47,500 nt of DNA from Pseudolabrys sp. Lineage in GTDB: Bacteria; Pseudomonadota; Alphaproteobacteria; Rhizobiales; Xanthobacteraceae. A program made the position numbers and the translations under genes. Below, in pieces: positions 7,541 through 34,689 of the stretch (positions are counted from its first letter, which is position 1; the number at the start of each line of letters is the position of its first letter). Where the stretch lies: contig JAHCKG010000010.1 of NCBI GenBank assembly GCA_026125895.1, positions 1 to 47,500 of the forward strand. The letters run 5' to 3'. The notes beneath the pieces were generated by a model. The model had not been told where the DNA came from and did not search any database. It saw only the letters and a program-made list of their open reading frames with translations.

Positions 7541-7588
7541 GGGGATGGGGTCCCCCGATAACCGCCGGAATGGCTGATGACTCCTGCC
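7541..7588 (+). promoter_or_regulatory. Fluoride riboswitch (crcB motif) aptamer
   Basis: The segment matches the known fluoride aptamer in order: GGGGATGGGGTCCCCC (5' stem with the GATG element), AACCGCC, a short loop, then TGGCTGATGACTCCTGCC. The GGCTGATG and ACTCCT stretches are strongly conserved in this RNA class. It lies 100 bases upstream of crcB on the same strand, the classical arrangement. Fluoride binding is expected to raise expression of the exporter. Confidence 0.93.
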
Positions 7589-7668
7589 GGATGCAAAACG
7601 CGAGGCCGCGACGGCCCCGCGAATGGCAGGAGTCCAACCGTTTCAGGCGGTTTTTTGCCGCCCGAAAC
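7579..7668 (+). terminator. Expression platform of the fluoride riboswitch
   Basis: GACTCCTGCC (7579-7588), the 3' strand of the aptamer, is exactly complementary to GGCAGGAGTC (7625-7634), so the aptamer and a long downstream hairpin exclude each other. Next come AACCG-tttcagg-CGGTT (7636-7652) ending in a run of six T (7651-7656), a short terminator-like hairpin. A competing longer hairpin, with arms GTTTCAGGCGG (7640-7650) and CCGCCCGAAAC (7658-7668), would hold the T run in its loop. The pairings are read directly; the switching order is inferred. Confidence 0.55.
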
Positions 7669-10663: not shown

Positions 10664-10957
10664 AACAATCGCTTCACTGCACGATTGCGTCTTTAGTCGT
10701 ATTACGATATAAATATCTCCAGCCGCCCATTGCGACTTTCACGCAGACACGCATCCAACGAATTTCACGACATGCCGCGCGGATTCTTCGCGCGTGCGGC
10801 ATGTAATCTTCCTATGGCGTGATCGAAAATCTGAATTTGATTCAGATGTGGCCTCTCCGCAGTGTTTAAAAAGGCAGGCGTTGGGGGCGACGTGGCTTCC
10901 CCGCGAACTGTCAAAAAACAAAAAAGCAATCGCATCGCACATGGGGAGTTTCGCACA
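10664..10957. other. Regulatory region upstream of the oxalate/formate antiporter gene
   Basis: 294 bases without a gene. It holds a TCGTATTACGA palindrome (10697-10707), a hairpin with arms ACATGCCGC and GCGGCATGT (10770-10804), and the dyad listed separately at 10829-10847. The frame of the antiporter gene is open leftward to 10862, but that part shows no protein-like character. No consensus promoter stands out. Confidence 0.4.
10829..10847. promoter_or_regulatory. Perfect dyad upstream of oxlT, candidate operator
   Basis: ATCTGAAT-TTG-ATTCAGAT is an exact 8-base inverted repeat with a three-base centre, 110 bases before the antiporter start. Its size and AT-rich nature fit a dimeric regulator. 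It does not match the GATAG-type sites near the LysR gene nor the TATACAT-type sites near the GntR gene, so a third regulator is possible. Confidence 0.5.
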
Positions 10958-12358
10958 ATGAGCTTTCTCGACCGCAGTCACACAGTCGCAGGGCCCGGCT
11001 TCAGCCGGTGGCTGGTGCCCCCTGCCGCGCTGTGCGTGCATCTTTGCATCGGCCAGGCTTACGCCTTCAGCGTGTTCAATCTGCCGATGAGCAAGCTGCT
11101 CGGCATCACGCAATCGACGCCCGAGGACTGGAAGCTGACGCAGCTCGGCTGGATCTTCTCCATCGCCATTCTCTTCCTCGGCATCTCGTCGGCGGTGTTC
11201 GGCCGCTGGGTCGAGGAAGGCGGCCCGCGCAAGGCGATGTTCACCGCCGCGCTGTGCTGGGCCGGCGGCTTCTTTATCTCGGCCATCGGCGTCTATATGC
11301 ATCAGCTGTGGCTGATCTATCTCGGCTACGGCGTGCTGGGCGGCATCGCGCTCGGCATCGGCTACATCTCACCGGTTTCGACGCTGATCAAATGGTTTCC
11401 GGATCGCCCGGGCATGGCGACCGGCATGGCCATCATGGGCTTCGGCGGCGGCGCCTTCATCGCTTCACCGTTGTCGGTGTGGCTGATGGCAAAGTTCTCG
11501 ACACCGACGCATGTCGGCGTCGCCGAGACGTTCATCGTTCTCGGCCTCGCCTACCTGTTCTTCATGATCGTCGGATCGATCATCGTCCGCGTGCCGGCGC
11601 CGGGCTGGAAACCGGAAGGCTATACGCCGCCGGTCGTGGCGCAGAAGCTGATCACCAAGAACGACGTCTATGTCTATGACGCACTGAAGACGCCGCAGTT
11701 CTGGCTGATCTGGTGGGTGCTGTGCCTCAACGTGACCGCCGGCATCGGCGTGCTCGGCCAGGCTTCGGCGATGAGCCAGGAAATGTTCCCCGGGCACATC
11801 ACGCCGATCGCCGCCGCCGGCTTCGTCGGCCTGATGAGCCTGTTCAACATGGGCGGCCGCTTCTTCTGGGCTTCCACCTCGGACTTCATCGGCCGCCGCA
11901 ACACCTACTTCGTCTTCATGGTGCTCGGCTTCTTCCTGTACTGCGCCGTGCCTTACACGGGATCGATCGGCAGCGTGGCACTGTTCGTGATCTGCTTCCT
12001 CATCATCATCTCGATGTATGGCGGCGGCTTCGCCACCGTGCCGGCCTATCTCAAGGACATGTATGGCACGCGATATGTCGGCGCCATCCACGGTCTGCTG
12101 CTCACCGCCTGGTCGGCGGCCGGCGTCTTCGGGCCCGTGCTGGTGAACTACATCCGCGAGTACAACGTCACGCACGGCGTGCCGAAGGCGCAGGCTTACA
12201 ATACCACCATGTACATCATGGCCGGCCTGCTCGTGATCGGCTTTATCTGTAACCTTATGATCAAGGCCGTACACGAACGCTTCCATATGAAGTCCGATCA
12301 TGAAGCCGAGCGCGCACAGGCGGAAGTCGCCGCCGTCAGCGAACCGGCCGGCGCCTGA
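10958..12358 (+). CDS. oxlT: Oxalate/formate antiporter-family MFS transporter (OxlT type)
   Basis: 466 residues with about twelve membrane segments. Proteins of this MFS subfamily exchange divalent oxalate for formate, though related members carry other organic anions. Segments such as QAYAFSVFNLPMSK, LGGIALGIGYISPVSTLIKW, FPDRPGMATGMAIMGFGGGA and the GGRFFWASTSDFIGRRN loop are typical. The ATG at 10958 has GGGGAG nine bases upstream. A 40-residue membrane protein gene follows after 15 bases and a terminator closes the pair. An oxalate-degrading cluster lies 4 kb downstream on the other strand, supporting the substrate assignment. Some members lack proven oxalate transport, so caution remains. 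Confidence 0.82.
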   Translation: MSFLDRSHTVAGPGFSRWLVPPAALCVHLCIGQAYAFSVFNLPMSKLLGITQSTPEDWKLTQLGWIFSIAILFLGISSAVFGRWVEEGGPRKAMFTAALCWAGGFFISAIGVYMHQLWLIYLGYGVLGGIALGIGYISPVSTLIKWFPDRPGMATGMAIMGFGGGAFIASPLSVWLMAKFSTPTHVGVAETFIVLGLAYLFFMIVGSIIVRVPAPGWKPEGYTPPVVAQKLITKNDVYVYDALKTPQFWLIWWVLCLNVTAGIGVLGQASAMSQEMFPGHITPIAAAGFVGLMSLFNMGGRFFWASTSDFIGRRNTYFVFMVLGFFLYCAVPYTGSIGSVALFVICFLIIISMYGGGFATVPAYLKDMYGTRYVGAIHGLLLTAWSAAGVFGPVLVNYIREYNVTHGVPKAQAYNTTMYIMAGLLVIGFICNLMIKAVHERFHMKSDHEAERAQAEVAAVSEPAGA

Positions 12359-15377: not shown

Positions 15378-15576
15378 CAATCTCTCCCTGGGATGTCCCG
15401 GTTCAAACCGGCGCGCAGTCGATCATTCCGCCCGGCATGGCGCAAGCGGCGGCACCCGCAAAAATGTGTGACCCGGCATGCGGCGTTGCCAAAGCGTGGA
15501 CCGTCCCACATATAGCCAGGACATCCCCGCCCCATCCCCCGGCCCCGCCGGCCCGCCCCGAACCGAAGGCCCCGTC

Positions 15577-16152
15577 ATGCTCGAACTCGATCCCAAGACC
15601 ACCGCGCTCATTCTCATCGACTTGCAGAAGGGCATCCTGGCCCGGCCGCTGTCACCCTATTCGGCCGATCAGGTCGTCTCAACCGCGGCCCGGCTCGGCC
15701 GCGCGGTCAGCGATGCCGGCGGTCTCGTCGTGCTGGTCAATGTCGATTTCGGCGCCGACCTGTCGGCCGCGCCGCGCGGCCTGACCGATACGCCGCTCGC
15801 CGTGCCGCCCGGCGGCCTGCCGCCGGACTGGGCCGAGATCGTCGGCGAGGTCGCGCACCTACCGCACCTCTCGATCACCAAGCGCACGTGGAGCGCGTTC
15901 TTCGGCACCGAGCTCGACCTGCAACTGCGCCGCCGCGGCATCGACACCATCATCGTCGGCGGCGTCGCCACCAATTTCGGCGGCGAGCAGACCGCGCGCG
16001 ACGGCTGGCATCTCAACTACAACGTCGTCGTCGCCGAAGACGCTTCCACCAGCATGGGCGAGGGCCTGCACGCCTTCGCCATCGAGAAGGTGCTGCCGCG
16101 CGTCGCGCGCGTGCGCAAGGCCGACGAGATCATCGCCGCGCTGAAGCGCTGA
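15577..16152 (+). CDS. Isochorismatase-family hydrolase lacking the usual cysteine
   Basis: 191 residues. The fold is that of isochorismatase and nicotinamidase-like hydrolases: TTALILIDLQKGIL with the catalytic Asp, SITKRTWSAFFGTELD with the catalytic Lys, and TIIVGGVATNFGGEQTARDG. In nicotinamidases and most amidohydrolases of the family, the position after ATN-x carries the nucleophilic Cys; here it is Gly, as in true isochorismatases. So it is not expected to act as a classical amidase. The substrate is unknown and no siderophore genes are nearby. The ATG at 15577 is chosen because the upstream frame is proline-rich with no domain. Confidence 0.82.
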   Translation: MLELDPKTTALILIDLQKGILARPLSPYSADQVVSTAARLGRAVSDAGGLVVLVNVDFGADLSAAPRGLTDTPLAVPPGGLPPDWAEIVGEVAHLPHLSITKRTWSAFFGTELDLQLRRRGIDTIIVGGVATNFGGEQTARDGWHLNYNVVVAEDASTSMGEGLHAFAIEKVLPRVARVRKADEIIAALKR

Positions 16153-16160
16153 GAGCACAA

Positions 16161-16190
16161 GAAAAAGGCCGCCGGTTTGAGCCGGCGGCC
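16161..16190 (-). terminator. Rho-independent terminator of the fhs gene
   Basis: GGCCGCCGG (16167-16175) and CCGGCGGCC (16182-16190) form a perfect 9-base-pair stem. Read leftward it is followed by TTTTTC, so it ends transcription of the minus-strand oxalate/C1 cluster 27 bases past the fhs stop. Read rightward there is no T run. Confidence 0.88.
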
Positions 16191-16216
16191 TCAAGTCGTC
16201 GCACAATGAACGGCTG

Positions 16217-17911
16217 TTAGAACAGGCCGACGATCTTGCCGTCCTTGACGTCGATGGCGTCGGCCGACGGCGTCTTCGGCAGGCCCGGCATGGTCATGAT
16301 CTCACCGCAGATGGCGACGATGAACTCGGCCCCGGCGGAGAGACGCACCTCGCGCACCGGGATCGAGAAGCCGGTCGGCGCGCCCTTGGCGTCGGGGTTG
16401 GTCGAGAACGAGTACTGCGTCTTGGCGATGCACACCGGCAGCTTGCCGAAGCCCATCTCTTCCCAGGTCTTGAGCTGGTCCTTGACCGACTTGTCGGCGG
16501 TCGCGTCGTCGGCGCGGTACAGCTCTTTGGCGATGGTGCGCACCTTATCGAACAGCGGCATGTCGTCGGGGTACAGGAACTTGAGGTTGGCCTTGCCCTC
16601 GTCGCAGATCTTGACCACGGCCTTGGCGACATCGGCCGCGCCCTCGCCGCCCATGGCCCAGTGATCGGCCATCAGCGCCTCGACGCCGAGCGCCTTGCAC
16701 TTCTCCTTGACCAGCGCGACTTCGGCGTCGGTGTCGGCCGAGAAGCGGTTGATCGACACCACGGCCTGAAGGCCGAACTTCTTCACGTTCTCGATGTGGC
16801 GCTGCAAATTGGCCATGCCGGCCTCGAGCGCCTTGAGGTCTTCCTTCTTGAGGTCCTCTTTCTTGACGCCGCCATGCATCTTCAGCGCCCGGATGGTGGC
16901 GACCAGCACCACGCAGTCCGGCTTGAGGCCGGCCTTGCGGCACTTGATGTCGAGGAACTTCTCCATGCCGAGATCGGCGCCGAAGCCGGCTTCCGTCACC
17001 ACATAGTCGGCGAGCTTGAGCGCGGTGGTGGTGGCGACCACCGAGTTGCAGCCATGGGCGATGTTGGCGAAGGGGCCGCCATGGATGAAGGCCGGCGTGC
17101 CTTCCAGCGTCTGCACCAGGTTCGGCGCGATCGCCTCCTTGAGCAGCGCCGTCATGGCGCCGTGCGCGTTGAGGTCCTTGGCGCGGATCGGCTTACGCTC
17201 GCGCGTATAGGCGACGATGATGTTGCCGAGGCGCTCCTTGAGGTCGTCGAGGTTCTTGGCGAGACAGAAGATCGCCATGACTTCCGAGGCCACCGTGATG
17301 TCGAAGCCGGCTTCGCGCGGATAGCCGTTGGCGACGCCGCCGAGCGAGCAGACGATCTCGCGCAGCGCGCGGTCGTTCATGTCGAGGACGCGGCGCCAGG
17401 TGACGCGGCGCGAGTCGATGCCGAGCGCGTTGCCCCAGTAGATGTGGTTGTCGATCAGCGCCGAGAGCAGGTTGTGCGCCGAGGTGATGGCGTGGAAGTC
17501 CCCGGTGAAGTGGAGGTTGATATCCTCCATCGGGATCACCTGGGCATAGCCGCCGCCGGCGGCGCCGCCCTTCATGCCGAAGGACGGCCCGAGCGAGGGC
17601 TCGCGCAGCGCGCACATCGCCTTCTTGCCGATGAAGTTGAGCGCGTCGGTGAGGCCGACCGTGGTCGTGGTCTTGCCCTCGCCCGCCGGTGTCGGCGAGA
17701 TCGCGGTGACCAGGATCAGCTTGCCGTTCGGCTTTCCTTGCAGCGAGTTGACGTAGTCCATCGACACCTTGGCCTTGTAGTAGCCATAGGGTTCGAGGTT
17801 CTCGGCGGCGACGCCGAGCTTGTCCTTGGCGACGTCAAGGATGCGCCGCTTGGTGGCGGACTGGGAGATTTCGATATCGGATTTCGGGGACTGATGCTGC
17901 GAGGCGGGCAT
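16217..17911 (-). CDS. fhs: Formate-tetrahydrofolate ligase
   Basis: 564 residues, the normal length. It couples formate to tetrahydrofolate with ATP, giving 10-formyl-THF for C1 metabolism. The ATP loop TPAGEGKTT is at 74-82. Other family segments are [47 protein letters not shown] and [14 protein letters not shown], and the end is [19 protein letters not shown]. It is the last gene of the minus-strand oxalate cluster, followed by its own terminator. The gap before it (134 bases) holds a palindromic repeat, so partial uncoupling from upstream genes is possible. In context it would capture the formate released from formyl-CoA. Confidence 0.96.
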
Positions 17912-17957
17912 GGTGCGTTTCCGTTCGTAACGTGGTGAGCCGGCTATTTTCTTTCTT

Positions 17958-18041
17958 CGTCATGGCCGGGCTTGTCCCGGCCATCCACGTCTTGCCTAGA
18001 AGAAGGCGTGGATGCCCGGCATAAAGCCGGGCATGACGCGG
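17958..18041. repeat. Palindromic intergenic repeat, family C
   Basis: Two facing hairpins: ATGGCCGGGC-ttgt-CCCGGCCAT, and TGCCCGGC-ataaa-GCCGGGCA further right. CGTCATG at the left is inverted as CATGACG at the right, and CCACG/CGTGG pairs inside. It fills the gap between the formyltransferase-like gene and fhs. Confidence 0.8.
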
Positions 18042-18045
18042 AGAT

Positions 18046-18975
18046 TTATGTGAATCGCGCCTTGGGCTGAATCCCAGCGCCCTTCGCCCATTCGCCCGCG
18101 CTCATCTTCTTAGCCCCGTCGGGCTGCACGCGGGTGATGTTGAAGCGGCCGTCGGCGCAGACCACGGTGATGCTGTTGTCGTCGCTGGCGACGATCTCGC
18201 CGAGCTTGCCGCCGATGCCTTTCGGATCGCGCGCCGGCAGCGGCTTGGCGTCGAAGATCTTGACGGTGGCGCCGTTCAGCGTCGTCCAGGCGCCCGGAGC
18301 CGGGTTGCAACCGCGGATCAGGCGGTCGATCTGCTCCCACGGCTTGCCCCAGTCGATCTTGGCATTGTCGGCGCGGCACAGGCCTTCATAGGTGGCCTTC
18401 GATTCGTCCTGCTTGATCTTCGGCGCCTTGCCGGCTTTCACGAGATCGACGCCCTCGAGCATCGCATCGACGCCCATCGGAAACAGACGATCGAAATAGA
18501 CGGTGCCGAGCGTGTCGGTTTCGGAGATCGGCGTCTTCTTCTGGATCAGGATGTCGCCGGTATCGAGGCCGTTGTCCGGCCAGAAGATTGACAGGCCGGT
18601 TTCCTTCTCGCCCTTGATGATCGGCCAGTTGATGGCGGAGGCGCCACGATAGGCCGGCAGCAGCGACGGGTGATACTGGATCGAACCGTGCGTCGGGATG
18701 TTGAGGAAGTCTTCCGGCACGAAGAGCGTGACGAAGGCCATGACCTGCAGGTCGGGCTTGAGCGCCTTGAACTCCTCCCAGACCTTCGGGTCCTTGTAGG
18801 ACGCCGGCTGGTGCACCGGCAACCCGGCGGCCAGCGCCGCTTCCTTGAGCGGATCGGCCTTGGCGCCTTCCTTCTCCGGCGCGACATAGACGGCGATGAC
18901 GTTGTCGCCGCGCTTGAGCAGCGCTTCGAGCACCGCCTTGCCGAAGGCCTGCTGGCCGTGGACTACGATACGCAT
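18046..18975 (-). CDS. Formyltransferase-family enzyme resembling the 10-formyl-THF dehydrogenase hydrolase domain
   Basis: 309 residues. The N-terminal formyltransferase domain has SIQYHPSLLPAYRGASAINW and GLSIFWPDNGLDTGD. H102 and D138 keep the 36-residue spacing of the catalytic His and Asp of mammalian 10-formyl-THF dehydrogenase (H106, D142). The C-terminal domain (about 205-305) resembles the methionyl-tRNA formyltransferase C-domain (RLIRGCNPAPGAWTTLNG). There is no aldehyde dehydrogenase part. Similarity to the dehydrogenase's hydrolase domain is much closer than I would expect for Fmt, so a role with free 10-formyl-THF or another formyl donor is likelier than tRNA formylation. It lies between frc and fhs. 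Strong GGAGG site at the start. Confidence 0.82.
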   Translation of the reverse strand: MRIVVHGQQAFGKAVLEALLKRGDNVIAVYVAPEKEGAKADPLKEAALAAGLPVHQPASYKDPKVWEEFKALKPDLQVMAFVTLFVPEDFLNIPTHGSIQYHPSLLPAYRGASAINWPIIKGEKETGLSIFWPDNGLDTGDILIQKKTPISETDTLGTVYFDRLFPMGVDAMLEGVDLVKAGKAPKIKQDESKATYEGLCRADNAKIDWGKPWEQIDRLIRGCNPAPGAWTTLNGATVKIFDAKPLPARDPKGIGGKLGEIVASDDNSITVVCADGRFNITRVQPDGAKKMSAGEWAKGAGIQPKARFT

Positions 18976-19003
18976 TCAATAGCCTCCTAGAACTTCGCCA
19001 CTT

Positions 19004-19122
19004 GTCCCGGGCGCAGCGCAGCACGAAGTAATGCGCTGCAGAACCGGGACCTTCGCAAACTCTACGTCCGTAACGGTCCCGGATCTGCGGTGCGTCACTG
19101 CGTGCCGCACCGCGTCCGAGAC
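19004..19122. repeat. Palindromic intergenic repeat, family D, copy 1
   Basis: GTCCCGG (19004-19010) with GCGCAGCGCAGC, inverted as GCGCTGCAGAACCGGGAC (ends 19050), then a second part with a hairpin TGCGGTGCG / CGTGCCGCA. The copy at 20624-20726 shares the left half closely. It occupies the gap between frc and the formyltransferase gene. Confidence 0.75.
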
Positions 19123-19126
19123 AAGA

Positions 19127-20599
19127 TTACGCCGCCTTTTCCTTCTTCTCCGGCGCGCTCAGGGCGCCGGAGTTCTTGATGTCCGCGATCTCGGCCGCCT
19201 TGAAGCCGAGCACGTCGGCGAGGATCTCGTCGGTGTGCTCGCCAAGCAGCGGCGAACGCTTCACTTCCGACACCGAGTCCGACAGCTTGATCGGGTTGCC
19301 GACGCTCAGATACTTGCCGCGCACGGGGTGATCGACCTCGACCACGGTGCCGGTCTTGCGCAGCGACTGATCCTCGGCCAGTTCCTTCATCGACAGGATC
19401 GGGCCGCACGGGATGTCGAACTTGTTGAGGATGTCCATGGCCTCGAACTTGGTCTTGGTCATGGTCCATTCTTCGATGCGCGCGAAGATCTGGTTGAGCT
19501 TGGGCAGGCGCGCCTTCGGCGTGGCGAACTCCGGATCGGTCTTCCAGGTCGGCTCGCCGATGACGTCGCAGATCTCGCCCCAGACCGGCGCTTGCGTGAT
19601 GAAGTAGATGTAGGCGTTCGGATCCTCCGGCGCGCCCTTGCACTTGAGGATGCGGCCCGGCTGGCCGCCGCCGGAATCGTTGCCGGCGCGCGGCGTCGCG
19701 TCGCCGAACGGAATGCCCTCGCCGTACTGCGAATATTCGGTGAGCGGGCCGTGCGCGAGGCGCTGCTGGTCGCGCAGCTTGACGCGCGCGAGGTTGAGCA
19801 CGCCGTCCTGCATGGCGCAGAGCACGCGCTGGCCGCGTCCGGTGCGCGTGCGCTGGAACAGCGCGGTGACGATGCCGAGCGCCAGATGCAGGCCGGTGCC
19901 CGAGTCGCCGATCTGCGCGCCGGTCACGAGCGGCGGGCCGTCGCGGAAGCCGGTGGTCGAGGCCGAGCCGCCGGTGCACTGCGCGACGTTCTCGTACACC
20001 TTGCAGTCCTCGTAGGGTCCGGGGCCGAAGCCCTTGACCGAAGCGACGATCATGCGCGGGTTGAGCTTGTGGATGTGCTCCCAGGTCAGGCCCATGCGAT
20101 CGAGCGCGCCGGGCGCGAAGTTCTCGACCAGCACGTCGCACTTCCTGATCAGTTCATCGAGCACGCGCTTGCCCTGCGGATGCTTGGAGTCGATCGTGAT
20201 CGAGCGCTTGTTGTGGTTGAGCATGGTGAAGTAGAGCGAGTCCGCGCCCTTCACGTCGACGAGCTGGCCGCGCGTGATGTCGCCGACACCCGGGCGCTCG
20301 ACCTTGATGACGTCGGCGCCGAACCAGGCCAGCAGCTGCGTGCAGGTCGGACCCGACTGCACATGCGTGAAGTCGAGGATGCGCACGCCCTGCAGCGCCT
20401 TGCCGTCCATGCCGAAGGGCTTCGACGAGGGCTTGGGATAGGCGCCGTTGCCGTTGGCCTTCTTGGCGGCGGGTTTGGCGGCAGGTTTGGCGCTCGCCTT
20501 CTTCGCGGCCGGCCGGGCGGCAGCTTTCGCGGCCTTGCGGACAGGCTTTTTCGCCGCCGGCTTGGATTTGGCTTTCGCCTTCTGCTTCTTCTTGGCCAT
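19127..20599 (-). CDS. frc: Formyl-CoA:oxalate CoA-transferase with Lys/Ala-rich N-terminal tail
   Basis: 490 residues. A class III CoA-transferase moving CoA from formyl-CoA to oxalate. The catalytic domain begins near residue 64 ([18 protein letters not shown]) and runs to the C-terminus at normal length. [25 protein letters not shown] and AQIGDSGTG are family segments. Asp232 corresponds to the catalytic Asp169 of the Oxalobacter enzyme, and the 63-residue shift equals the tail length. The tail repeats AKPAAKK-like units, as in histone H1-like proteins. The start at 20599 has GGAGG seven bases upstream; an ATG 15 bases earlier is less likely, and there is no ribosome site at the core ATG (20410). 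Between oxc and the formyltransferase gene. Confidence 0.93.
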
Positions 20600-20623
20600 C
20601 TCGTGGTCCTCCATTTCCTTTTC

Positions 20624-20726
20624 GTGTCCCGGGCGCTGCGCAGCGCGTTAGCGGTGCGCTGCAGAACCGGGGCCGTTTCAAACTGGGGCGATCCCGAATC
20701 GCGGCTGCGCCGTGCCCGGGATGACG
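20624..20726. repeat. Palindromic intergenic repeat, family D, copy 2
   Basis: GTGTCCCGGGCGCTGCGCAG, then GTGCGCTGCAGAACCGGGGC and a right part ending GTGCCCGGGATGACG. It matches the copy at 19004-19122 most clearly in the left half. It fills the gap between oxc and frc; short gene gaps here are repeatedly occupied by such elements. Confidence 0.75.
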
Positions 20727-20733
20727 CTTCGCG

Positions 20734-22461
20734 TCACTTCTTCTTCAACTGGCTCTGCGGGTTGAGATTGCCGATGCGGCCGGACTCGCTGCCGGCGCCC
20801 GGATCGAGCACGGCGTTGATGAGGGTCGGCTTGCCGGAATCCATCGCCGCGTTGACCGCGCGCTTGAGTTCGTCGGGCGAGGTGGCATTGACGCCGACGC
20901 CGCCGAAAGCCTCGATCATCTTGTCGTAGCGCGCGCCCTTGACGAACACGGTGGTCGCCGGATCGTCGCTCGCCTTGTTGACGTCGGTGCCGCGATAGAT
21001 GCCGTCATTGTTGAAGATGACGATGCAGACCGGCAGGTTGTAGCGGCAGATGGTTTCGATCTCCATGCCGCTGAAACCGAAGGCCGAGTCGCCTTCGACG
21101 CAGAGCACCGGCTTGCCGGTTTCGACCGCCGCGGCGATGGCATAGCCCATGCCGATGCCCATGATGCCCCAGGTGCCGACGTCGATGCGCTTGCGCGGCT
21201 TGTAGACGTCGATGATGCCGCGGGCGAGATCGAGCGTGTTGGCGCCCTCGTTCACCAGCATGGCGTCCGGGCGTTCCTTGACGATGGTGCGCAGCACGCC
21301 GAGCGCGCCGTGATAGTCCATCGGCACGTTGTTGTTCATAAGGCGCGGCGCCATCTTGGCGACGTTGTCCTCGCGCTTCTTGGTGACGGCCGAAATCCAG
21401 TCAGACGGCGGCGCCGGGAATTTGTCGCCCATGCCCTTGAGCAGCGCTTCGACGCAGGAGCCGATGTCGCCGACGACCGGGGCGACGATCTCGACGTTCG
21501 AGTCCATTTCCTTCGGCTCGATGTCCACCTGGATGAACTTCTTCGGCGCTTCGCCCCAGGTCTTGCCCTTGCCGTGCGACAGGAGCCAGTTGAGCCGCGC
21601 GCCGATCAGCATGACGACGTCGGAATCCTTGAGCACCGTCGAGCGCGCCGCGCCGGCGCACTGCGGATGGGTGTCGGGCAGCAAGCCTTTGGCCATGCTC
21701 ATCGGCAGGAACGGAATGCCGCTCTTTTCCACCAGCGCCTTCACGGCGTCGTCGGCCTGCGCATAGGCCGCGCCCTTGCCGAGGATGATCAGCGGCTTCT
21801 TCGCGCCCTTGAGCACGTCGAGCGCGCGCTTGACCGCATCCGGGGCCGGAAGCTGCGCCGGGGCCGGGTCGATCACCTTGACCAGCGATTTCTTGCCCTT
21901 GGCCGCATCGATCACCTGGCCGAACAGCTTGGCCGGCAGGTCGAGATAGACGCCGCCCGGGCGGCCGGAGACCGCGGCGCGGATGGCGCGGGCGATGCCG
22001 ATGCCGATGTCCTCGGCGTGCAGCACGCGGTAGGCGGCCTTGCAGAGCGGCTTGGCGATGGCGAGCTGATCCATCTCCTCGTAATCGCCCTGCTGCAGAT
22101 CGACGATCTCGCGCTCGGACGACCCGGAGATGAGGATCATCGGGAAGCAGTTGGTGGTGGCGTGCGCCAGCGCGGTCAGGCCATTGAGGAAGCCCGGCGC
22201 CGAGACCGTGACGCAGACGCCCGGCTGCTTGGTCAGGAAGCCGGCGATCGAAGCGGCATAACCGGCGTTCTGCTCATGACGGAAGGACAGGACCCGGAGC
22301 CCCTCGGCCTGCGACATGCGCAGGAAGTCGGTGATCGGGATGCCCGGCACCGCATAGAGCGTCTTGATGCCGTTGAGCTTGAGTCCCTCGATGATCAGGT
22401 TGAAGCCGTCGGTCAGCTCCTGCTCGGTCTCGGCCGCGTTCTTCACCGCTGCTTCAGCCAT
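20734..22461 (-). CDS. oxc: Oxalyl-CoA decarboxylase
   Basis: 575 residues, close to the 568 of the Oxalobacter enzyme. The thiamine diphosphate-dependent enzyme converts oxalyl-CoA to formyl-CoA and CO2 in the cytoplasm. [11 protein letters not shown] carries the Glu (E63) that activates the cofactor. The thiamine diphosphate and Mg site is [13 protein letters not shown] (from 457) through [23 protein letters not shown] and [14 protein letters not shown] are further characteristic segments. The ATG at 22461 has GGGAG seven bases upstream. It forms the catabolic core with frc downstream; gntR lies 73 bases upstream on the same strand. Confidence 0.96.
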
Positions 22462-22534
22462 CGTCTACTCCCTTTCCTTTGCTCGCCAGCCGCCGCTCAC
22501 CCTGGGCGCGACGCGGGCATGTCCGTTTTTTGGT

Positions 22535-23296
22535 TCAGTCGAGATAATCGGCAAACTTGGCGACGTGATCGGCAAGGCCCAGCGCGTGGTCGCGCACGAG
22601 CTGCTCGGCGCGCTTGGTGTCGCGCGCCTCCAGAGCCTCGATGATCGCCATGTGATCCTTGATCGAACGGTCGGCGCGATCCTTTTCGCCGATGGTGGTG
22701 CGGCGGATCATGCGCATATGCGTGAACAGGTTGGCCGCCAGATCGATCAGCACGCTGTTCTTGCTGAGCCTGATGATTGTCTGGTGGAATTCGATGTTGG
22801 CGTCGGAATATTCGTCGAGATGCGCCCGCAACTCGCCGTCGATGAAGGCGGCGAACATCTCGCGCAGCCTCTCGATCTCGTCGTCGGTCGCGGAAAGGGT
22901 GATGAGGCGCGCCGCCATGCTCTCCAGCGCGGCCCAGGCGGTGATCATCTCGATCACTTCCTGCTTGGTCTTGCGCACCACATAGATGCCGCGGCGCGGC
23001 ACCGAGCGCACGAAGCCCTCGCTCTCGAGCTGCGCCATGGCCTCGCGCACCGGCGTGCGGCTGATCCCGAAGTCCTGCGCCAGCTTGCGCTCGTCGAGGC
23101 GGATCTCGTCGCGGCTGTGATAGACGTCCATCGCCACGATGGCGTTTTTGAGCGCCGCGTAGGCCTTGTGCTTGAAGCTCGGCGACTCCTCGATCGGCGC
23201 CAAATTTGGCCGCTGCGGCGCGGAAGTCACGCGAGCCGCACTGCCGGCCCGGCTCCGAGGAGAAACGTTGCGGGTACTGACGCCTTTGGTGCTCAT
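22535..23296 (-). CDS. GntR-family (FCD) transcriptional regulator of the oxalate cluster
   Basis: 253 residues. A 45-residue basic, probably disordered N-terminus precedes the winged helix-turn-helix (KHKAYAALKNAIVAMDVYHS, LAQDFGISRTPVREAMAQLE, GFVRSVPRRGIYV). The helical FCD effector domain includes HLDEYSDANIEFHQTIIRLS and, near the end, DHMAIIEALEARDTKRAEQL. It lies between tctA and oxc on the same strand, so it probably controls the cluster in response to oxalate, oxalyl-CoA or formyl-CoA. The ATG at 23296 is chosen; the frame stays open upstream to 23470 but would run through the candidate operator. Confidence 0.92.
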   Translation of the reverse strand: MSTKGVSTRNVSPRSRAGSAARVTSAPQRPNLAPIEESPSFKHKAYAALKNAIVAMDVYHSRDEIRLDERKLAQDFGISRTPVREAMAQLESEGFVRSVPRRGIYVVRKTKQEVIEMITAWAALESMAARLITLSATDDEIERLREMFAAFIDGELRAHLDEYSDANIEFHQTIIRLSKNSVLIDLAANLFTHMRMIRRTTIGEKDRADRSIKDHMAIIEALEARDTKRAEQLVRDHALGLADHVAKFADYLD

Positions 23297-23314
23297 GAGC
23301 GACTGCTTACCGTG

Positions 23315-23333
23315 CTGGTATACATAATGCCAG
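23315..23333. promoter_or_regulatory. Candidate GntR operator upstream of gntR
   Basis: CTGGTAT-ACATA-ATGCCAG is an inverted repeat of the form CTGGyAT-N5-ATrCCAG ending 19 bases before the gntR start. Its core TATACATAAT nearly matches TATACATTAT in the dyad upstream of tctC. The remaining 245 bases between gntR and tctA show nothing else. Confidence 0.55.
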
Positions 23334-23541
23334 AGGCCAATTCGGGCCGCAACCGCCTTCTGGCCGCGCTGCGTCGGCCGTCCCGCGGATCTCGCTGCCT
23401 GTGCCCAGAACGGCCGGGCGCGGCCCAAGGCGCCGACCCAGCCCGGCGCACGGCGCGAAAGCCTCGCCATCGTGCCGTCGGAGCTCTGGGATCGGGCGCC
23501 TCATGTCTCCTCCGCCGGCGCCAGCAGGCGCCCGCCCCTGG

Positions 23542-25062
23542 CTACTCCGCCGCCCGCGGCTCACCAGCGGAACCGCGCAGCCGGGTCCAGGTGTTCTGAA
23601 TGACCGGCCAGAACAGAGCGATGAGGCCGAGCAGCATGATCACCGAGACAAGGGGCGTCGACCAGAACACGTTGAATGAACCCTGCGATCCGAGCAGCGA
23701 CTGGCGGAACGATTCCTCCGCCTTGTCGCCAAGCACGATGGCAAGCACCATCGGCGCCAACGGATAGTTCGTTTTCTTCATCAGGTAGCCGGCGATGCCG
23801 AAGACCACCATCATGACGATGTCGAACGAATTGTTGTGCACCGTGTAGGCGCCGATGGCGCAGAACACGAGGATGACCGGGGCGATGACGCTGAAGGGGA
23901 TGCGCAGGATCGCGGCGAACACCGGCACGCAGGTCAGCACGATGATCAGGCCGACGATGTTGCCCATGTACATCGACGCAATCAGACCCCAGACGAAGTC
24001 CTTCTGCTCCGTGAACAGCAGCGGACCGGGCTGCAGGCCCCAGATCAGCAGGCCGCCCAGCAGCACGGCCGCGGTCGGCGAACCCGGCACGCCGAGCGAG
24101 ATCATCGGCAGCAGCGCCGAGGTGCCGGCGGCATGCGCCGCGGTTTCCGGCGCCACGACGCCTTCGATTTCGCCGGTGCCGAAGAAGCGGCCACGCTTGG
24201 AGATGCGCTTGGCGATGCCGTAGCTCATGAACGAGGCGGGCGTCGCGCCGGCCGGGCTGATGCCCATCCAGCAGCCGATCAGGCAGGACCGCAGCGACAG
24301 CATCCAGTAGCGCGGCAGTTCGGCCCAGGTCTGCAACACCACCTTCATGTTCAGCTTGGCGGTCTTGCCGCGGAACGACAGCCCCTCCTCCATGGTCAGC
24401 AGGATTTCGCCGATGCCGAACAGGCCGATGACGGCGATGAGGAAGTCGAAGCCGTTGAGCATCGACTCGAAGCCGAAGGTAAGGCGCAGCTGGCCGGTCA
24501 TCTGGTCAAGGCCGACGGCGCCGAGGCCGAATCCGAGCATCATCGAGGCGATCGTCTTGAAGGGCGGCTCCTTCGATAGACCGACGAAGCTGCAGAACGC
24601 CAGGAAATAGACCGAGAAAATCTCGGGCGGTCCGAACGACAGCGCAAAGCTCGCGACCAGCGGCGCCACCAGCGTGATCATGATGACGGCGAACAACGCG
24701 CCGACGAAGGACGAGGTGAAGGCGGCGGTGAGCGCCTCGCCGGCCTTGCCCTTCTGCGCCATGGGGTAGCCGTCGAATGTCGTGGCTACGGACCATGGCT
24801 CGCCGGGTATGTTGAATAGAATTGACGTGATGGCGCCGCCGAACAGCGCGCCCCAGTAGATACAAGACAGCATGATGATCGCCGAGGTCGGCGACATCGA
24901 AAAGGTCAGCGGCAGCAGAATGGCGATGCCGTTGGCGCCGCCGAGGCCGGGCAGCACGCCGACGATGACGCCGAGCACGATGCCGACGACCATCAGCAGC
25001 AGGTTGTACGGCTGGAGAACCACCGCGAAGCCGTGAAACAGATTGCCGATGTCTTCAAACAT
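23542..25062 (-). CDS. tctA: Tripartite tricarboxylate transporter, large membrane subunit (TctA)
   Basis: 506 residues, about 12 membrane segments, usual for TctA. It begins MFEDIGNLFHGFAVVLQPYN. The conserved GVLPGLGGANGIAILLPLTF and YWGALFGGAITSILFNIPGE segments mark the family, and a second conserved loop is TSALLPMISLGVPGSPTAAV. This is the ion-driven permease that takes substrate from the TctC binding protein. It lies 58 bases after tctB in the order tctC-tctB-tctA. Given its place upstream of gntR-oxc-frc, the substrate may be oxalate, which is an inference. Confidence 0.94.
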   Translation of the reverse strand: MFEDIGNLFHGFAVVLQPYNLLLMVVGIVLGVIVGVLPGLGGANGIAILLPLTFSMSPTSAIIMLSCIYWGALFGGAITSILFNIPGEPWSVATTFDGYPMAQKGKAGEALTAAFTSSFVGALFAVIMITLVAPLVASFALSFGPPEIFSVYFLAFCSFVGLSKEPPFKTIASMMLGFGLGAVGLDQMTGQLRLTFGFESMLNGFDFLIAVIGLFGIGEILLTMEEGLSFRGKTAKLNMKVVLQTWAELPRYWMLSLRSCLIGCWMGISPAGATPASFMSYGIAKRISKRGRFFGTGEIEGVVAPETAAHAAGTSALLPMISLGVPGSPTAAVLLGGLLIWGLQPGPLLFTEQKDFVWGLIASMYMGNIVGLIIVLTCVPVFAAILRIPFSVIAPVILVFCAIGAYTVHNNSFDIVMMVVFGIAGYLMKKTNYPLAPMVLAIVLGDKAEESFRQSLLGSQGSFNVFWSTPLVSVIMLLGLIALFWPVIQNTWTRLRGSAGEPRAAE

Positions 25063-25120
25063 GAGTGCTGTCTTTCGCCTTCACTGACAAAGTTTGTTCG
25101 GTGGCGTTTTTGGGCGCTTC

Positions 25121-25627
25121 TCAGAATCCCAGAGCGACTTCGAGCGGTCCCTTCGGCAGCGGCACCAAGAACCAGATCTCGAAGGTCACGAAGGTAAGGA
25201 TCGGCAGGCCGACGGCGATCGCCGCGATGACGGCCCAGTTGTAACGGCCGAACCAGCGCATGAAGAGAGCGATCAGCAGCGCCGAGGCCACGTAGATGCC
25301 GATATACGGAACGACCAGCGCGTAGATCGCGGTCGGCACGAGCACCTGCATCACCTTGCCGAGCTGACCCCAGGTCGCGAAAGTCGCGCCCGCGTCGGAA
25401 TGTTTCAGCGTCGAGGCGATGTTGACGGCGCAGGAAATCAGAATGATCACGCTGATATAGAAGGGAAAGAACCCGGCGCGCGGACCCTCCGCCGCCCAGC
25501 CGATGCCCACCTTGAGACTGCCGATGACGCCGATGATCGCGATGATCGCGATCAGCACCGCGACGCCGAGTTCGGCGCTGCGCTGGGACGGCCCGCCGCC
25601 GGCGGCATCTTCTGCGTTGTGAGACAT
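25121..25627 (-). CDS. tctB: Tripartite tricarboxylate transporter, small membrane subunit (TctB)
   Basis: 168 residues with four hydrophobic segments (about 20-40, 53-72, 93-120, 128-160). GPRAGFFPFYISVIILISCA matches the TctB pattern in which a G-x-FP motif lies before the second helix. TctB is poorly conserved in general, so position between tctC and tctA is strong support. The start follows GAGGGG. Confidence 0.9.
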   Translation of the reverse strand: MSHNAEDAAGGGPSQRSAELGVAVLIAIIAIIGVIGSLKVGIGWAAEGPRAGFFPFYISVIILISCAVNIASTLKHSDAGATFATWGQLGKVMQVLVPTAIYALVVPYIGIYVASALLIALFMRWFGRYNWAVIAAIAVGLPILTFVTFEIWFLVPLPKGPLEVALGF

Positions 25628-25724
25628 TCACCCCTCATATTTCGCTGGAGCAGCAACCGACGCCGCGCGGGCGGCGCCGGTTTTCTCGTTTGCCGACGTC
25701 AGCCGGCCGATCAGTTGGGCTTGA

Positions 25725-26741
25725 TCAGTTGGTTTTGGCCATGAAACCGGCCTCTTTCATCAGGCCTTCGTGCAGCTTCTCGGCGTCGGCGACCCACTTC
25801 TTGTATTCATCGCCGGTCATGAAGGTCTGGTTGAACGCGCCGTCGCTCATGAGCTTCTTCCACTCCGGCGTTTCACGCACCTTCTTGAACAAATCGACGT
25901 AGTAGGCGACCGCATCCGGGCTGACGCCCGGCGGCATGAAGTAGCCGCGCAGCATCACGTATTCCACGTCGAGACCGGCCGACTTGCAGGTCGGGATCGA
26001 GTCCCACGCCAGATCGCCGGCGATCTTCTCGTGATAGTCGAGCTTCTTGGCGTCGAACACGCAGAGCGGACGGAGCTTGCCTGCGCGCCAGTGCGCCACC
26101 GCCTCGATCGGGTTGTTGACCGACGAATCGATGTGATTGCCGACGAGCTGCACGGCAACGTCACCGCCGCCTTTATAAGGAATGTACGTCATCTTCTTGC
26201 CGGTCGCCTTCTGCAGCGCGACCGTGATGATCTGATCTTCCTGCTTCGAGCCCGTGCCGCCCATCTTGAAGCTGTTATCGGGCTTGGACTTGATGTCGTC
26301 GACGTATTCCTTGGCGGTCTTGTACGGCTTGTCGGCGTTCACCCAGAGGATGAATTCGTCGAGCGCCATCATGGCGACCGGCGTCATGTCCTTCCAGCTG
26401 AACGGAATGCCCGTGGCCATCGGCGTGGTGAAAAGGTTCGACAGCGTGATGATCAGCTTGTGATCATTGCCCTTCGAATTCTTCACGTCGAGGAAGCCTT
26501 CGCCGCCAGCGCCGCCTGATTTGTTGATGACCACCACCGACTGCTTCGACAAATTGTGCTTGGTGATGATGCCCTGCATGGCACGCGCCATCTGATCCGC
26601 GCCACCGCCCGTGCCCGCCGGCACGATGATTTCGATGGGGTGGTTCGGCTCCCAGGCGCTCGCCGGAGCGGCGGACAGTGCGATTGCGCCGCTAGCAAAA
26701 GCGGCGGTACCCAGTGTCAGAACTTTTTTGGCAACAGACAT
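25725..26741 (-). CDS. tctC: Tripartite tricarboxylate transporter substrate-binding protein (TctC/Bug)
   Basis: 338 residues. A signal peptide (MSVAKKVLTLGTAAFASGAI, cut after about ASA) leads into the Bug fold. PIEIIVPAGTGGGADQMARA is the first ligand loop. MGGTGSKQEDQIITVALQ and YIPYKGGGDVAVQLVGNHID form the second ligand region. It binds a small carboxylate in the periplasm and delivers it to TctAB. Chosen start is the ATG at 26741, with GGGAGG upstream, rather than the TTG before it. First gene of the minus-strand cluster; a dyad lies about 95 bases upstream. Confidence 0.93.
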   Translation of the reverse strand: MSVAKKVLTLGTAAFASGAIALSAAPASAWEPNHPIEIIVPAGTGGGADQMARAMQGIITKHNLSKQSVVVINKSGGAGGEGFLDVKNSKGNDHKLIITLSNLFTTPMATGIPFSWKDMTPVAMMALDEFILWVNADKPYKTAKEYVDDIKSKPDNSFKMGGTGSKQEDQIITVALQKATGKKMTYIPYKGGGDVAVQLVGNHIDSSVNNPIEAVAHWRAGKLRPLCVFDAKKLDYHEKIAGDLAWDSIPTCKSAGLDVEYVMLRGYFMPPGVSPDAVAYYVDLFKKVRETPEWKKLMSDGAFNQTFMTGDEYKKWVADAEKLHEGLMKEAGFMAKTN

Positions 26742-31718: not shown

Positions 31719-33869
31719 CTAGTTCAAGGCGGGCTGGGCCGCTCTCATGGTTGCGTTGTTGGTAACCGGTGTGTGTACTGCGAGGTCTGAGAGCTTCTCG
31801 ACATCAAGAATGAACGCGACCCGGCCGTTGCCGAGAATGGTGGCGGCGGCGATGCCGGGCACCGCGCCGTAGCTTTCTTCGATGCTCTTGATCACGACCT
31901 GCTGATGACCGAGCAATTCATCGACGACCAGGCCGATGCGGGAACCTTCGCCGGTGTCGGTGATGATGACGACGCGCTCCGAATTGTTCCCGACCGACGA
32001 GCCGATGCCGAGCAGATCGCCGAGCATGACGATCGGCACGAATTCACCGCGCAATTGCAGCATGCCGTGGGTGCCGATGAGGCTCGAAATCTCGCCGCGC
32101 GACGGCCGCAAGCATTCGACGATCGCCGACAGCGGCATCACGTAGGTCTGGGTGCCGACCTTGATCACCATGCCGTCCATGACCGCCAGCGTCAGCGGCA
32201 GCGCGAGCTGAATGGTCATGCCCTGGCCGCGCACCGACTTCAGCGTAATGCGGCCGCCGAGGTCCTGGATGTTGCTGCGGACGACGTCCATGCCGACGCC
32301 GCGGCCGGAGATGTCCGAAACCGTCTCCGCGGTGGAGAAGCCGGGCATCATGATGAGGTTGTTGATCTCGTCCTCGGACAACTGCGCGTCCGGTCCGACC
32401 AGGCCCTTTTCGCGGGCGATCTTCAGCACGCGTTCGGAATTGATGCCGGCGCCGTCGTCCTTGATCTCGATGACGATGCGGCCGCCGCGGTGTTCGGCGG
32501 ACAGGCGGATGACGCCCTCCTCCGGCTTGCCGGCGGCAAGGCGGGCGGCCGGCGCTTCGACGCCGTGATCGACCGAGTTGCGGATGATGTGCGTCAGCGG
32601 ATCGCCGAGGCGTTCGATGATCGAACGATCGACCTCGGTCGTCTCACCGTGCGTCTCCAGCCGCACCTTCTTGTGCGTCTTGGCGGCGACTTCGCGGACC
32701 AGACGCGGCATGCGCTGAAACACCGAGCCAACCGGCTGGGCGCGCATCGACATCACGCTGTCCTTGAGCTCGCGGGTATGGTGCGCGACCTCGTCCAGGA
32801 TCTGGATCAGGCGCATGCTGGTGGATTCCGGCAGGTCCTGAACGATCTGCCCCAGCATGGCCTGCGAGATGACAAGCTCGCCGACCATGTTGACGACGCG
32901 GTCGATACGCTCAAGCTCGATGCGGGTCGTCGTCGCGGCCGGCTTGGTGCGGCCGGCGCCGCCACCGGCCGTGGCCGGTTCGGCCTCGGCTTTCGGCGCG
33001 GCGGCCGCAACGGGTTTGGCGGGCTCGACCCCGGCGAGCGGCATCTCGGGGGCGAGCGGCGGCGCGTCGATCGTGGGCATGGCCGCCGCGACCGGGACAG
33101 GCGTCACGTCCTCGATCGAGAGGTCGCAGTCGCCGGAGACGAATTCGAAGACCTCGTCGATCTGAACGCGGGCCGCCTCGGTGCGCAGCGTCGCGGTCCA
33201 CCACAAGTACGGGACATCGGTCTCGATGTCGCCCAGCCCCGGCAGGTCTTCCGCGTGCGCCTCCAATTCAAGCTCGCCGAGCTTGCGCAACTCGCGCAGG
33301 ACGTAAAGCGGCTCATTGGCCTTCTTCAGCATTTCCGGCTTCGGCCGGAAGGTGATGGTGTAGATGCGCTGGCCGTCGGCCGGCTGGTCGGCGTCAATCT
33401 CGTCGAGATTGACGGCCACCGGCATGAAGTCGAGACCCTCGAAATCGGCCGGCGCGATATCGCCGCTGTCGCCACCGCCGCCGCCCTGCTCGATGATCTG
33501 TTCGAGCGCGACGCGGACCTCACCCCCGAAACCGTGCGCGATCTGCTGCCCCGAGCGCGACATCTGCACGAGGTCGGAGAGCACGTCGCTCGCCGACAGC
33601 AGGACGTCGAGGTTGTCCGGCGTCGCCGACAGGCTGCCGTTGCGCAGGCCGTCGAGTACCGTTTCGAAGACGTGAGCGAACTCGACGAGCTGTTCGAAGC
33701 CGAAAATGCCGGCGCCGCCTTTCACCGAATGGACGCCGCGGAACACCGCATTGACCGTTTCGTCGTTGCCTTCGCCCGATCGGATATCGGTCAGGCCGAT
33801 CTCGATCTGCTGCATCGCTTCGTCGCATTCGTCGAAGAATGTCTTCTTCAGATCGTCCAAGCTTGCCAT
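31719..33869 (-). CDS. cheA: CheA, chemotaxis histidine kinase
   Basis: 716 residues. The P1 phosphotransfer domain has H47 in FRGVHSVKGGAGIFGFEQL. A P2-like region (about 145-255) is followed by an Ala/Pro/Glu linker (to about 310), and the P3 dimerisation helices start at TRIELERIDRVVNMVGELVI. The P4 ATPase has N-box HIIRNSVDHGVEAPA, G1 IKDDGAGIN and G2 DISGRGVGMDVV. The P5 CheW-like regulatory domain (from about 575) ends near ILDVEKLSDLA. No receiver is fused. Central kinase of the cluster; 43 bases after the STAS-CheY gene. Confidence 0.96.
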   Translation of the reverse strand: MASLDDLKKTFFDECDEAMQQIEIGLTDIRSGEGNDETVNAVFRGVHSVKGGAGIFGFEQLVEFAHVFETVLDGLRNGSLSATPDNLDVLLSASDVLSDLVQMSRSGQQIAHGFGGEVRVALEQIIEQGGGGGDSGDIAPADFEGLDFMPVAVNLDEIDADQPADGQRIYTITFRPKPEMLKKANEPLYVLRELRKLGELELEAHAEDLPGLGDIETDVPYLWWTATLRTEAARVQIDEVFEFVSGDCDLSIEDVTPVPVAAAMPTIDAPPLAPEMPLAGVEPAKPVAAAAPKAEAEPATAGGGAGRTKPAATTTRIELERIDRVVNMVGELVISQAMLGQIVQDLPESTSMRLIQILDEVAHHTRELKDSVMSMRAQPVGSVFQRMPRLVREVAAKTHKKVRLETHGETTEVDRSIIERLGDPLTHIIRNSVDHGVEAPAARLAAGKPEEGVIRLSAEHRGGRIVIEIKDDGAGINSERVLKIAREKGLVGPDAQLSEDEINNLIMMPGFSTAETVSDISGRGVGMDVVRSNIQDLGGRITLKSVRGQGMTIQLALPLTLAVMDGMVIKVGTQTYVMPLSAIVECLRPSRGEISSLIGTHGMLQLRGEFVPIVMLGDLLGIGSSVGNNSERVVIITDTGEGSRIGLVVDELLGHQQVVIKSIEESYGAVPGIAAATILGNGRVAFILDVEKLSDLAVHTPVTNNATMRAAQPALN

Positions 33870-33912
33870 GTTCGTTAGCCTTGTCCGTCAGCCTTGCATC
33901 AATACGATCTGT

Positions 33913-34680
33913 TCAAGGGGCGACTTTGCGCACGGTGGCAACCAGGCGCTCTGGATCGAACGGCTTAACCATCCATCCCGTCGCGCCGGCTTCACGCGCC
34001 TGGTTTTTCTTGTCGCCGTCACTTTCGGTGGTGAGCACGAGGATCGGCTTCGACTTGTACGTCGGGTCGCGTCGCAAATTGCGGATCACTTCGTACCCGT
34101 CCATCCGCGGCATATTGATGTCGGTAATGATGACATCCACCTCGTCCTTCTCCTTAGCCAGAACGTCAAGGCCGTCCTGGCCGTCGACAGCCTGGATCAC
34201 ATCGAAGCCGGCCTCGGCGAGAGTCAGCATCAGCATGTCGCGAATCGTTTTGGAGTCGTCGATCGTCAGAATGCGTTTGCTCATGACTTTCTCGCTGATT
34301 GGAGGAATGTCGGCGTCAAACGACAGCGCCGTCTCCGCCGGCGTTGCCTCGGTCGCTGCGCCGGTGAGATCCGGCTCTTCGGAGGCGTCTTCTGAAATCC
34401 GGCTGTGGTCGAGATGGGCCTGCCAGTCTAGGCCGAAATCTTCGAAGGTGGCGACGAACGCCGCCGACGGGTTCCTGATCTTGATGCTATCGCCGGCTCG
34501 CAAGACCGCCAGAACAACCTGAGCGCACGGCAGCGTCAGGGTCTCGACTTCGGAGGCGTCGAGCGCGAGCGGCGCGTCGCCGCTGACGCGCTGTCGCATC
34601 AGCTCGAGAAAGGATTCGGCCGCCGCCTGATCCAGTATCGGCGGCAGCATGACCACGTTCTGTTCGGCGTTGCCCATCAT
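33913..34680 (-). CDS. STAS-CheY fusion protein
   Basis: 255 residues. Residues 1-92 form a STAS-like domain (PLALDASEVETLTLPCAQVV, then VATFEDFGLDWQ), as in the small STAS proteins often found beside cheA. An acidic linker (about 93-132) leads to a complete CheY (133-255): MSKRILTIDDSKTIRDML, phosphoacceptor D187 in VIITDINMPRMDGY, and WMVKPFDPERL. Met133 (codon at 34284) is exactly where a separate 123-residue CheY would start, so internal initiation could give free CheY, although only a weak GAGAAAG precedes it. 9 bases after cheB. Confidence 0.88.
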   Translation of the reverse strand: MMGNAEQNVVMLPPILDQAAAESFLELMRQRVSGDAPLALDASEVETLTLPCAQVVLAVLRAGDSIKIRNPSAAFVATFEDFGLDWQAHLDHSRISEDASEEPDLTGAATEATPAETALSFDADIPPISEKVMSKRILTIDDSKTIRDMLMLTLAEAGFDVIQAVDGQDGLDVLAKEKDEVDVIITDINMPRMDGYEVIRNLRRDPTYKSKPILVLTTESDGDKKNQAREAGATGWMVKPFDPERLVATVRKVAP

Positions 34681-34689
34681 CGGTTTGTC

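Follow-up and report, generated by a model that had tools for sequence, protein, structure and literature searches.

A free-standing formyltransferase in a conserved oxalate gene array of Pseudolabrys sp.: a candidate link between formyl-CoA and folate

The fate of formyl-coenzyme A (formyl-CoA) in oxalate users is unsettled, and the question is raised by a 47,500-nucleotide stretch of Pseudolabrys sp. DNA (contig JAHCKG010000010.1; hereafter the window) in which the genes of the oxalate core, oxc and frc, are followed on one strand by genes for a formyltransferase (FT) and formate-tetrahydrofolate ligase (Fhs). FT is the most informative gene of the array and one concrete, widely conserved candidate for handling the formyl group. 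We tentatively propose, at somewhat less than even confidence, that it exchanges formyl between formyl-CoA and tetrahydrofolate (THF), with Fhs either capturing the one-carbon (C1) unit or priming a formyl-CoA cycle. Naming with Pfam and NCBIfam gave eight minus-strand genes, running from 26741 to 16217, in the order tctC-tctB-tctA-gntR-oxc-frc-FT-fhs that a preliminary description of the window had listed; its terminator after fhs is matched by a terminator-like hairpin, and its naming of Oxc and Frc as oxalate enzymes stands, both proteins scoring above curated NCBIfam equivalog cut-offs. The features are as follows.

25725..26741, minus strand: tctC, periplasmic receptor of a tripartite tricarboxylate transporter (PF03401, 105.3 bits), ATG at 26741
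25121..25627, minus strand: tctB (PF07331, 65.7 bits)
23542..25062, minus strand: tctA (PF01970, 493.8 bits)
23316..23324, minus strand: putative GntR operator TGTATACCA, some 20 nt 5' of the likely start of gntR
22535..23296, minus strand: gntR, FCD-type regulator (PF00392 and PF07729)
20734..22461, minus strand: oxc, oxalyl-CoA decarboxylase (TIGR03254)
19127..20599, minus strand: frc, formyl-CoA:oxalate CoA-transferase (TIGR03253)
18046..18975, minus strand: FT, formyltransferase of 309 residues (PF00551 and PF02911)
16217..17911, minus strand: fhs, formate-tetrahydrofolate ligase (NF010030)
16165..16192, minus strand: terminator-like hairpin 3' of fhs, with an 11-pair stem, 9 of the pairs G-C, and a T tract

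The preliminary description had called FT simply a formyltransferase. Its domains, PF00551 and PF02911 alone, agree with that name, and among finer identities the nearest is the hydrolase domain of ALDH1L1, the animal 10-formyl-THF dehydrogenase, not Fmt. All six top sequence matches of FT in the PDB are ALDH1L1 chains, scoring 211-217 bits where the best Fmt reaches 165. With an FT profile the ALDH1L1 domains reach 277-286 bits and with an Fmt profile 138-142, in a comparison that used 3 ALDH1L1, 53 of 81 FT and 13 of 16 Fmt sequences. In sequence, then, FT is nearer to the ALDH1L1 hydrolase domain than to Fmt. Residues H102, S104 and D138 of FT, invariant in 30 of 30 FT sequences, match the His-Ser-Asp triad of ALDH1L1 (His106, Ser108 and Asp142). 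The Asn of the Fmt N-x-H motif, which we take to be an active-site residue, is present in 13 of 13 Fmt sequences, whereas all 53 FT sequences have Gln (36) or Cys (17) in its slot; the window's FT has Gln100 there, and the three ALDH1L1 sequences have Ile. The Cys-bearing FT sequences (CFHPS), 17 of the 53 used, form one clade with support of 100/99 (loci L014, L015, L024, L027-L031, L034, L085-L091 and L202), and their active-site thiol could hold formyl. An AlphaFold2 model of FT (mean predicted local distance difference test score of 94.6) shares the fold of the ALDH1L1 hydrolase domain and has that domain, 4qpd, as its first Foldseek match, with 36% identity over 308 columns. In a 69-sequence tree without an outgroup, Fmt forms one clade (100/100), whereas ALDH1L1 sits on a long branch at an open fork, so that the tree shows neither a union of ALDH1L1 with FT nor an origin within it; the tree program warns that long branches meet.

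Other assignments of FT were rejected. Fmt shares its two-domain fold of PF00551 and PF02911, but FT stays below the Fmt cut-off (TIGR00460, 182.3 bits versus 201.5). It scores far below the PurU cut-off (TIGR00655, 22.6 versus 285.95) and under the NCBIfam cut-off for PurN. As a free protein of 309 residues without phosphopantetheine carrier and aldehyde dehydrogenase domains, it is not a full 10-formyl-THF dehydrogenase such as ALDH1L1. The formyl-THF domain of HypX/HoxX, which acts in CO maturation of NiFe hydrogenase, is a distant homologue of FT (45.9-48.6 bits, about 22% identity), but HypX has bound CoA and a fused enoyl-CoA-hydratase-like domain, absent from FT; a passage in PMC6802093 relates that the HypX domain was proposed, with no direct experiment, to move formyl from 10-formyl-THF to CoA. 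The genome holds its own Fmt above cut-off and its own PurN (225.2 bits versus 150.1), and FT is therefore not expected to be doing the work of either. A fourth formyltransferase in the genome (G000:C48:130260-130691, at L004) has a PF00551 domain alone, matches other formyltransferases weakly and reaches no NCBIfam cut-off.

Chance clustering of the array was ruled out, since the same order is met again in many genomes. In the order sample of 199 genomes, with FT called at E at most 1e-60, 42 have FT, 41 have oxc and 27 have both, in 23 cases within 5 kb on one strand. Of 198 family genomes, 81 have FT, 141 oxc and 65 both, and 60 of those 65 have the two starts at most 6 kb apart on one contig. 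The Fisher values for the genome counts ignore phylogeny. We counted a gene as directly after another if it lay within 1.5 kb on the same strand, at loci with sufficient DNA, in sets that overlap, hold the best-scoring matches from related genomes and are not independent (the family loci being the best 30 minus the window's own). On this count FT comes directly 3' of frc at 26 of 30 loci of the order set, 29 of 29 of the family set, 35 of 40 of the extended set drawn from both and 65 of 77 of the named-genome set, and fhs is directly next after FT at 17 of 27, 26 of 26, 26 of 37 and 56 of 76, respectively. Among the named genomes, Pseudolabrys sp. Root1462 (L125) has an FT 96% identical to that of the window. 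The preliminary description had read the neighbouring genes as a link from oxalate to folate serving assimilation; the linkage is supported by this gene order, kept across many genomes, and net assimilation is one plausible direction of the flow. At two loci (L074:6339-8873 and L075:7562-10069) an aldehyde dehydrogenase gene is followed directly by FT on the same strand, an arrangement that recalls the ALDH1L1 fusion. The closest matches of the L074 protein, however, are betaine-aldehyde dehydrogenases, with ALDH1L1 chains far lower.

Oxc is not the only enzyme found before frc and FT. Both Oxc and 2-hydroxyacyl-CoA lyase (HACL) handle formyl-CoA. Among 66 named-genome FT loci with 4 kb of upstream DNA, 45 have oxc there, 8 a HACL-like thiamine diphosphate (ThDP) enzyme and 13 neither. 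At nine order FT loci, in genomes without oxc, a ThDP enzyme 24-27% identical to Oxc occupies the slot ahead of frc (L072, L073, L079, L081, L082, L083 and L092-L094); a tenth locus, L069, has just the end of a ThDP gene at the contig edge. HACL-like ThDP enzymes also precede frc-FT at L147, L153, L178, L188, L191, L195, L200 and L202. The grouping of ThDP enzyme, frc and FT persists at 56-60% FT identity in L188, L200 and L191, from bins titled Nitrospira, Longimicrobiales and Gammaproteobacteria, of which only L188 has fhs next. Two slot enzymes compared with the PDB were closest to HACL (268 and 252 bits). In NCBIfam, four gave an acetolactate synthase model first and HACL second. All fall under the HACL cut-off (NF058623, 600), with 337.6-351 bits in four and 338.1 in a fifth, and score higher with the acetolactate synthase model PRK05858 (417.6-448.1), yet under its cut-off of 587. 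They are possibly another formyl-CoA maker, as they would be if they are lyases, or non-orthologous oxalyl-CoA decarboxylases; the latter is suggested because the Frc adjoining two of them (L081 and L073) is above the oxalate Frc cut-off. HACL is described together with formyl-CoA in part of PMC10521678. In L081, which comes from a streamlined genome of 1.3 Mb (family f4), and in this locus only, an NAD formate dehydrogenase (L081:11742-12941) and a PanE-like reductase (4065-5099) were annotated near the ThDP enzyme-frc-FT-fhs genes.

FT is also associated with Fhs. The fhs gene is present in 78 of the 81 family genomes with FT and in 40 of the 42 in the order. Each of the three family genomes that lack it has FT no more than 712 bases from a contig end; of the two such genomes in the order, G018 has FT 310 bases from a contig end, and G167 is without fhs and without frc beside FT. 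Among family genomes with oxc, fhs occurs in 63 of 65 that have FT versus 32 of 76 that do not, and of 14 order genomes with oxc and no FT, 6 have fhs, in none of the 6 within 15 kb of oxc. Because fhs nearly always accompanies FT, FT seems to need Fhs in the cell. In the Pseudolabrys assembly, which is 82% complete, fhs is a single match (928.3 bits versus a cut-off of 652 for NF010030), and two FolD-type proteins score over cut-off, so that a route onward from 10-formyl-THF is available.

In the mechanism that we propose, Frc would activate oxalate and Oxc would decarboxylate the product to formyl-CoA, as these established families do. FT would then catalyze the reaction formyl-CoA + THF <-> 10-formyl-THF + CoA, using the thiol chemistry of the ALDH1L1 hydrolase domain with a phosphopantetheine arm, and Fhs would tie formate and ATP to the same folate pool. 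CoA bears the same phosphopantetheine arm. The exchange is suggested because a free protein of the ALDH1L1 hydrolase-domain type adjoins formyl-CoA makers and CoA has that arm; in ALDH1L1 itself, according to a passage in PMC6802093, the domain passes formyl from 10-formyl-THF to the 4'-phosphopantetheine thiol via His106, Ser108 and Asp142. In the capture direction, the FT/Fhs pair would take up oxalate carbon as 10-formyl-THF without ATP cost, and assimilation of the oxalate C1 unit through folate is plausible. Alternatively, these genes might serve to prime the formyl-CoA cycle or to keep the formyl-folate pool in balance. In the priming direction, Fhs and FT together would be an ATP-driven maker of formyl-CoA, restarting the Frc/Oxc cycle after formyl-CoA has been lost; the dependence of FT on Fhs would follow, because 10-formyl-THF from Fhs would be what FT turns into the formyl-CoA needed by Frc. 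That FT is a dedicated CoA/THF formyl exchanger in many bacteria, joining the two C1 carriers without free formate, is a broader claim that we consider possible but hold with less assurance than the proposal for the exchange itself.

A need for priming is recognized in a related system. The yfdXWUVE genes of Escherichia coli have the same Frc/Oxc core and a neighbor gene thought to prime the cycle; parts of PMC3720670 suggest YfdE for this role and put the half-life of formyl-CoA in quenched reaction mixtures at 1.9 h. In the window, by comparison, FT and Fhs stand beside the core, and the genome has one Frc over the cut-off and ten weaker class III relatives. With Frc as the query, a threshold of E 1e-20 brought up no YfdE-like primer next to oxc in loci lacking FT. 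Two Frc matches per locus occur in 7 of 20 FT-less loci, chosen by hand (L106, L110, L111, L112, L116, L117 and L120), versus 0 of 40 FT loci (L064-L103); two of the 20, L121 and L122, sit in genomes with FT elsewhere. Four of the extra CoA-transferases and the sole one of L121 pass the Frc cut-off (5 of 5 classified). The double Frc in FT-less loci is suggestive only.

Several observations weigh against an exchange between formyl-CoA and folate. In VIA-align 2 comparisons of the FT model, Fmt is level with or slightly above the ALDH1L1 hydrolase domain, and the fold comparison as a whole does not separate the two, favoring neither a thiol nor an amine as acceptor. FT is not the gene directly 3' of frc at 4 of 30, 5 of 40 and 12 of 77 loci, and no theme is shared by the flanks annotated at unlinked loci. 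FT is also missing from many oxalate users. Lastly, no PurU was found in the 82%-complete genome, and for this reason the strongest rival is that FT is a 10-formyl-THF hydrolase, which may stand in for PurU and with Fhs would prevent folate trapping at high formate by releasing formate and THF.

We consider such a hydrolase somewhat less likely than the exchange. The isolated N-terminal domain of ALDH1L1 is called a 10-formyl-THF hydrolase in a title cited by PMC8748788, FT has Gln or Cys rather than Asn in the Fmt slot, and the near-constant company of Fhs would be expected here too, since a hydrolase likewise needs the substrate that Fhs makes. None of the three PF00551 proteins tested passes the PurU cut-off of 285.95: the PurN protein scores 122.3, the fourth protein, rejected as PurU, 32.1 and FT 22.6, and the remaining one passes as Fmt. 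At 82% completeness, however, the assembly may simply lack a PurU that the organism has. Set next to Fhs, a hydrolase would spend ATP in a futile cycle, and the tight linkage to frc is not readily explained by it.

A second alternative, in our judgment improbable, is that Fhs alone captures the formate made by Frc and that FT is an unrelated formyltransferase, acting on tRNA or a metabolite, that has been carried along. By family Fhs is a bona fide formate-THF ligase, and FolD-type genes are in the genome. Nevertheless, FT mostly stands between frc and fhs across families, the FT-less oxc loci in the six order genomes with fhs lack it within 15 kb, and the score of FT under the Fmt cut-off in a genome with its own Fmt speaks against a tRNA role. 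Weakest, and marginally less probable again, is the suggestion that FT is the missing formyl-CoA hydrolase (EC 3.1.2.10), turning formyl-CoA into formate and CoA with its folate binding vestigial or regulatory: FT does sit among frc and formyl-CoA-linked genes, and part of PMC10192776 has no gene tied to the activity since 1963, but the reaction would waste a thioester that Frc recycles, it leaves the Fhs pairing without explanation, and FDH, Fmt and ArnA are described in a passage of PMC6802093 as users of 10-formyl-THF.

The regulatory signals suggest how the array is divided. With at most 1 mismatch, TGTATACCA occurs in the 320 nt around the gntR start at 28 of 32 loci versus 16 of 640 random stretches from the same loci, a count that shows conservation and is not an independent test, the motif having been chosen from these loci. 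The 32 were those matching into the first 12 residues at at least 45% identity with 300 nt available. An exact palindrome of the GTATAC type was found in 25 of 53. No enrichment of the motif is seen 5' of tctC (1 of 16), oxc (1 of 59), tctA (4 of 56), FT (0 of 119) and fhs (4 of 85), and a looser AT-rich palindrome, GTATAATATAC, lies before tctC at 26850-26840. Judging from these sites, GntR probably controls gntR-oxc-frc-FT-fhs as one self-controlled unit, and tctCBA may be a separate neighboring unit, because the operator-like site is kept only before gntR. The start of gntR is likely the ATG at 23296 rather than that of a longer frame to 23470, since the operator-like site sits between the two. 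Repeats of two palindromic interspersed families lie in the gaps at 17957-18038, 19001-19125 and 20625-20684 of the oxalate unit; the families have 65 and 63 genome matches, counts that include the query and take each palindrome on either strand, and such repeats inside the unit might affect readthrough. Terminator-like sites number 18 in the scanned region, against a mean of 8.9 for shuffles.

The core enzymes are well matched. Oxc scores 1014.9 bits with TIGR03254 (cut-off 739.4), and its residues 12-575 align with 7ayg and 7b2e, its closest PDB chains, each of which bears a putative Oxc annotation; it carries the 7ayg residue at all four positions where the two disagree. Frc scores 712.4 bits with TIGR03253 (cut-off 504.2), and its glycine-rich loop, presumably located in the stretch that we aligned, aligns with that of YfdW. 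A passage in PMC3720670 gives this loop, and not GNxH, as the mark of formyl-CoA:oxalate CoA-transferases. The frc start at 20599 was inferred from a ribosome-binding site and gives Frc an N-terminal tail of some 65 residues rich in Lys, Ala and Pro (20599-20405), which to our eye resembles histone H1; an in-frame open stretch rich in K, A and P precedes Frc in 11 of 120 Frc loci, the window counted.

As to uptake, the substrate of the tct transporter is assigned by inference. The gene at 10862-12358, which the preliminary description had offered as oxlT and thus a second transporter, does not bear that name: its major facilitator superfamily protein was rejected as OxlT at 117.8 bits against the TIGR04259 cut-off of 335 and is above the cut-off for an L-lactate transporter (NF049980 SfMCT, 338.4 versus 320). 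A related genome (L171) has a true OxlT by TIGR04259, at 657.4 bits. Elsewhere in the window are an isochorismatase-family gene convergent with fhs (15478-16152), a fluoride riboswitch on the plus strand (RF01734, 56.1 bits, 7532-7593) and a chemotaxis-type cluster at 31719-36908, whose members are a CheA-like kinase, CheB, a CheD-containing protein and a protein that joins STAS to a receiver; this last fusion (33913-34680) looks unusual.

The Frc/Oxc core itself is already known. We found no report of the oxc-frc-FT-fhs linkage in open-licence PMC literature, most subscription papers lying outside that scope. Of two papers describing oxalate pathways, PMC10192776 and PMC12927642, neither has the word "tetrahydrofolate" in its main text, and "formyltransferase" is absent from the main text of the second; the first names, in one part, two activities that have no gene, formyl-CoA hydrolase and oxalate CoA-transferase. 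If FT does transfer formyl, it would connect CoA and folate C1 metabolism directly, with a bearing on oxalate turnover in soil, on synthetic C1 pathways through formyl-CoA and on the evolution of mammalian ALDH1L1. Bacteria would then have a counterpart of the ALDH1L1 domain that stands free and uses CoA instead of the fused arm; paired with Fhs, it would amount to an ATP-driven formyl-CoA synthetase working through folate. A dedicated exchanger of this kind would serve oxalate and perhaps also 2-hydroxyacyl-CoA pathways.

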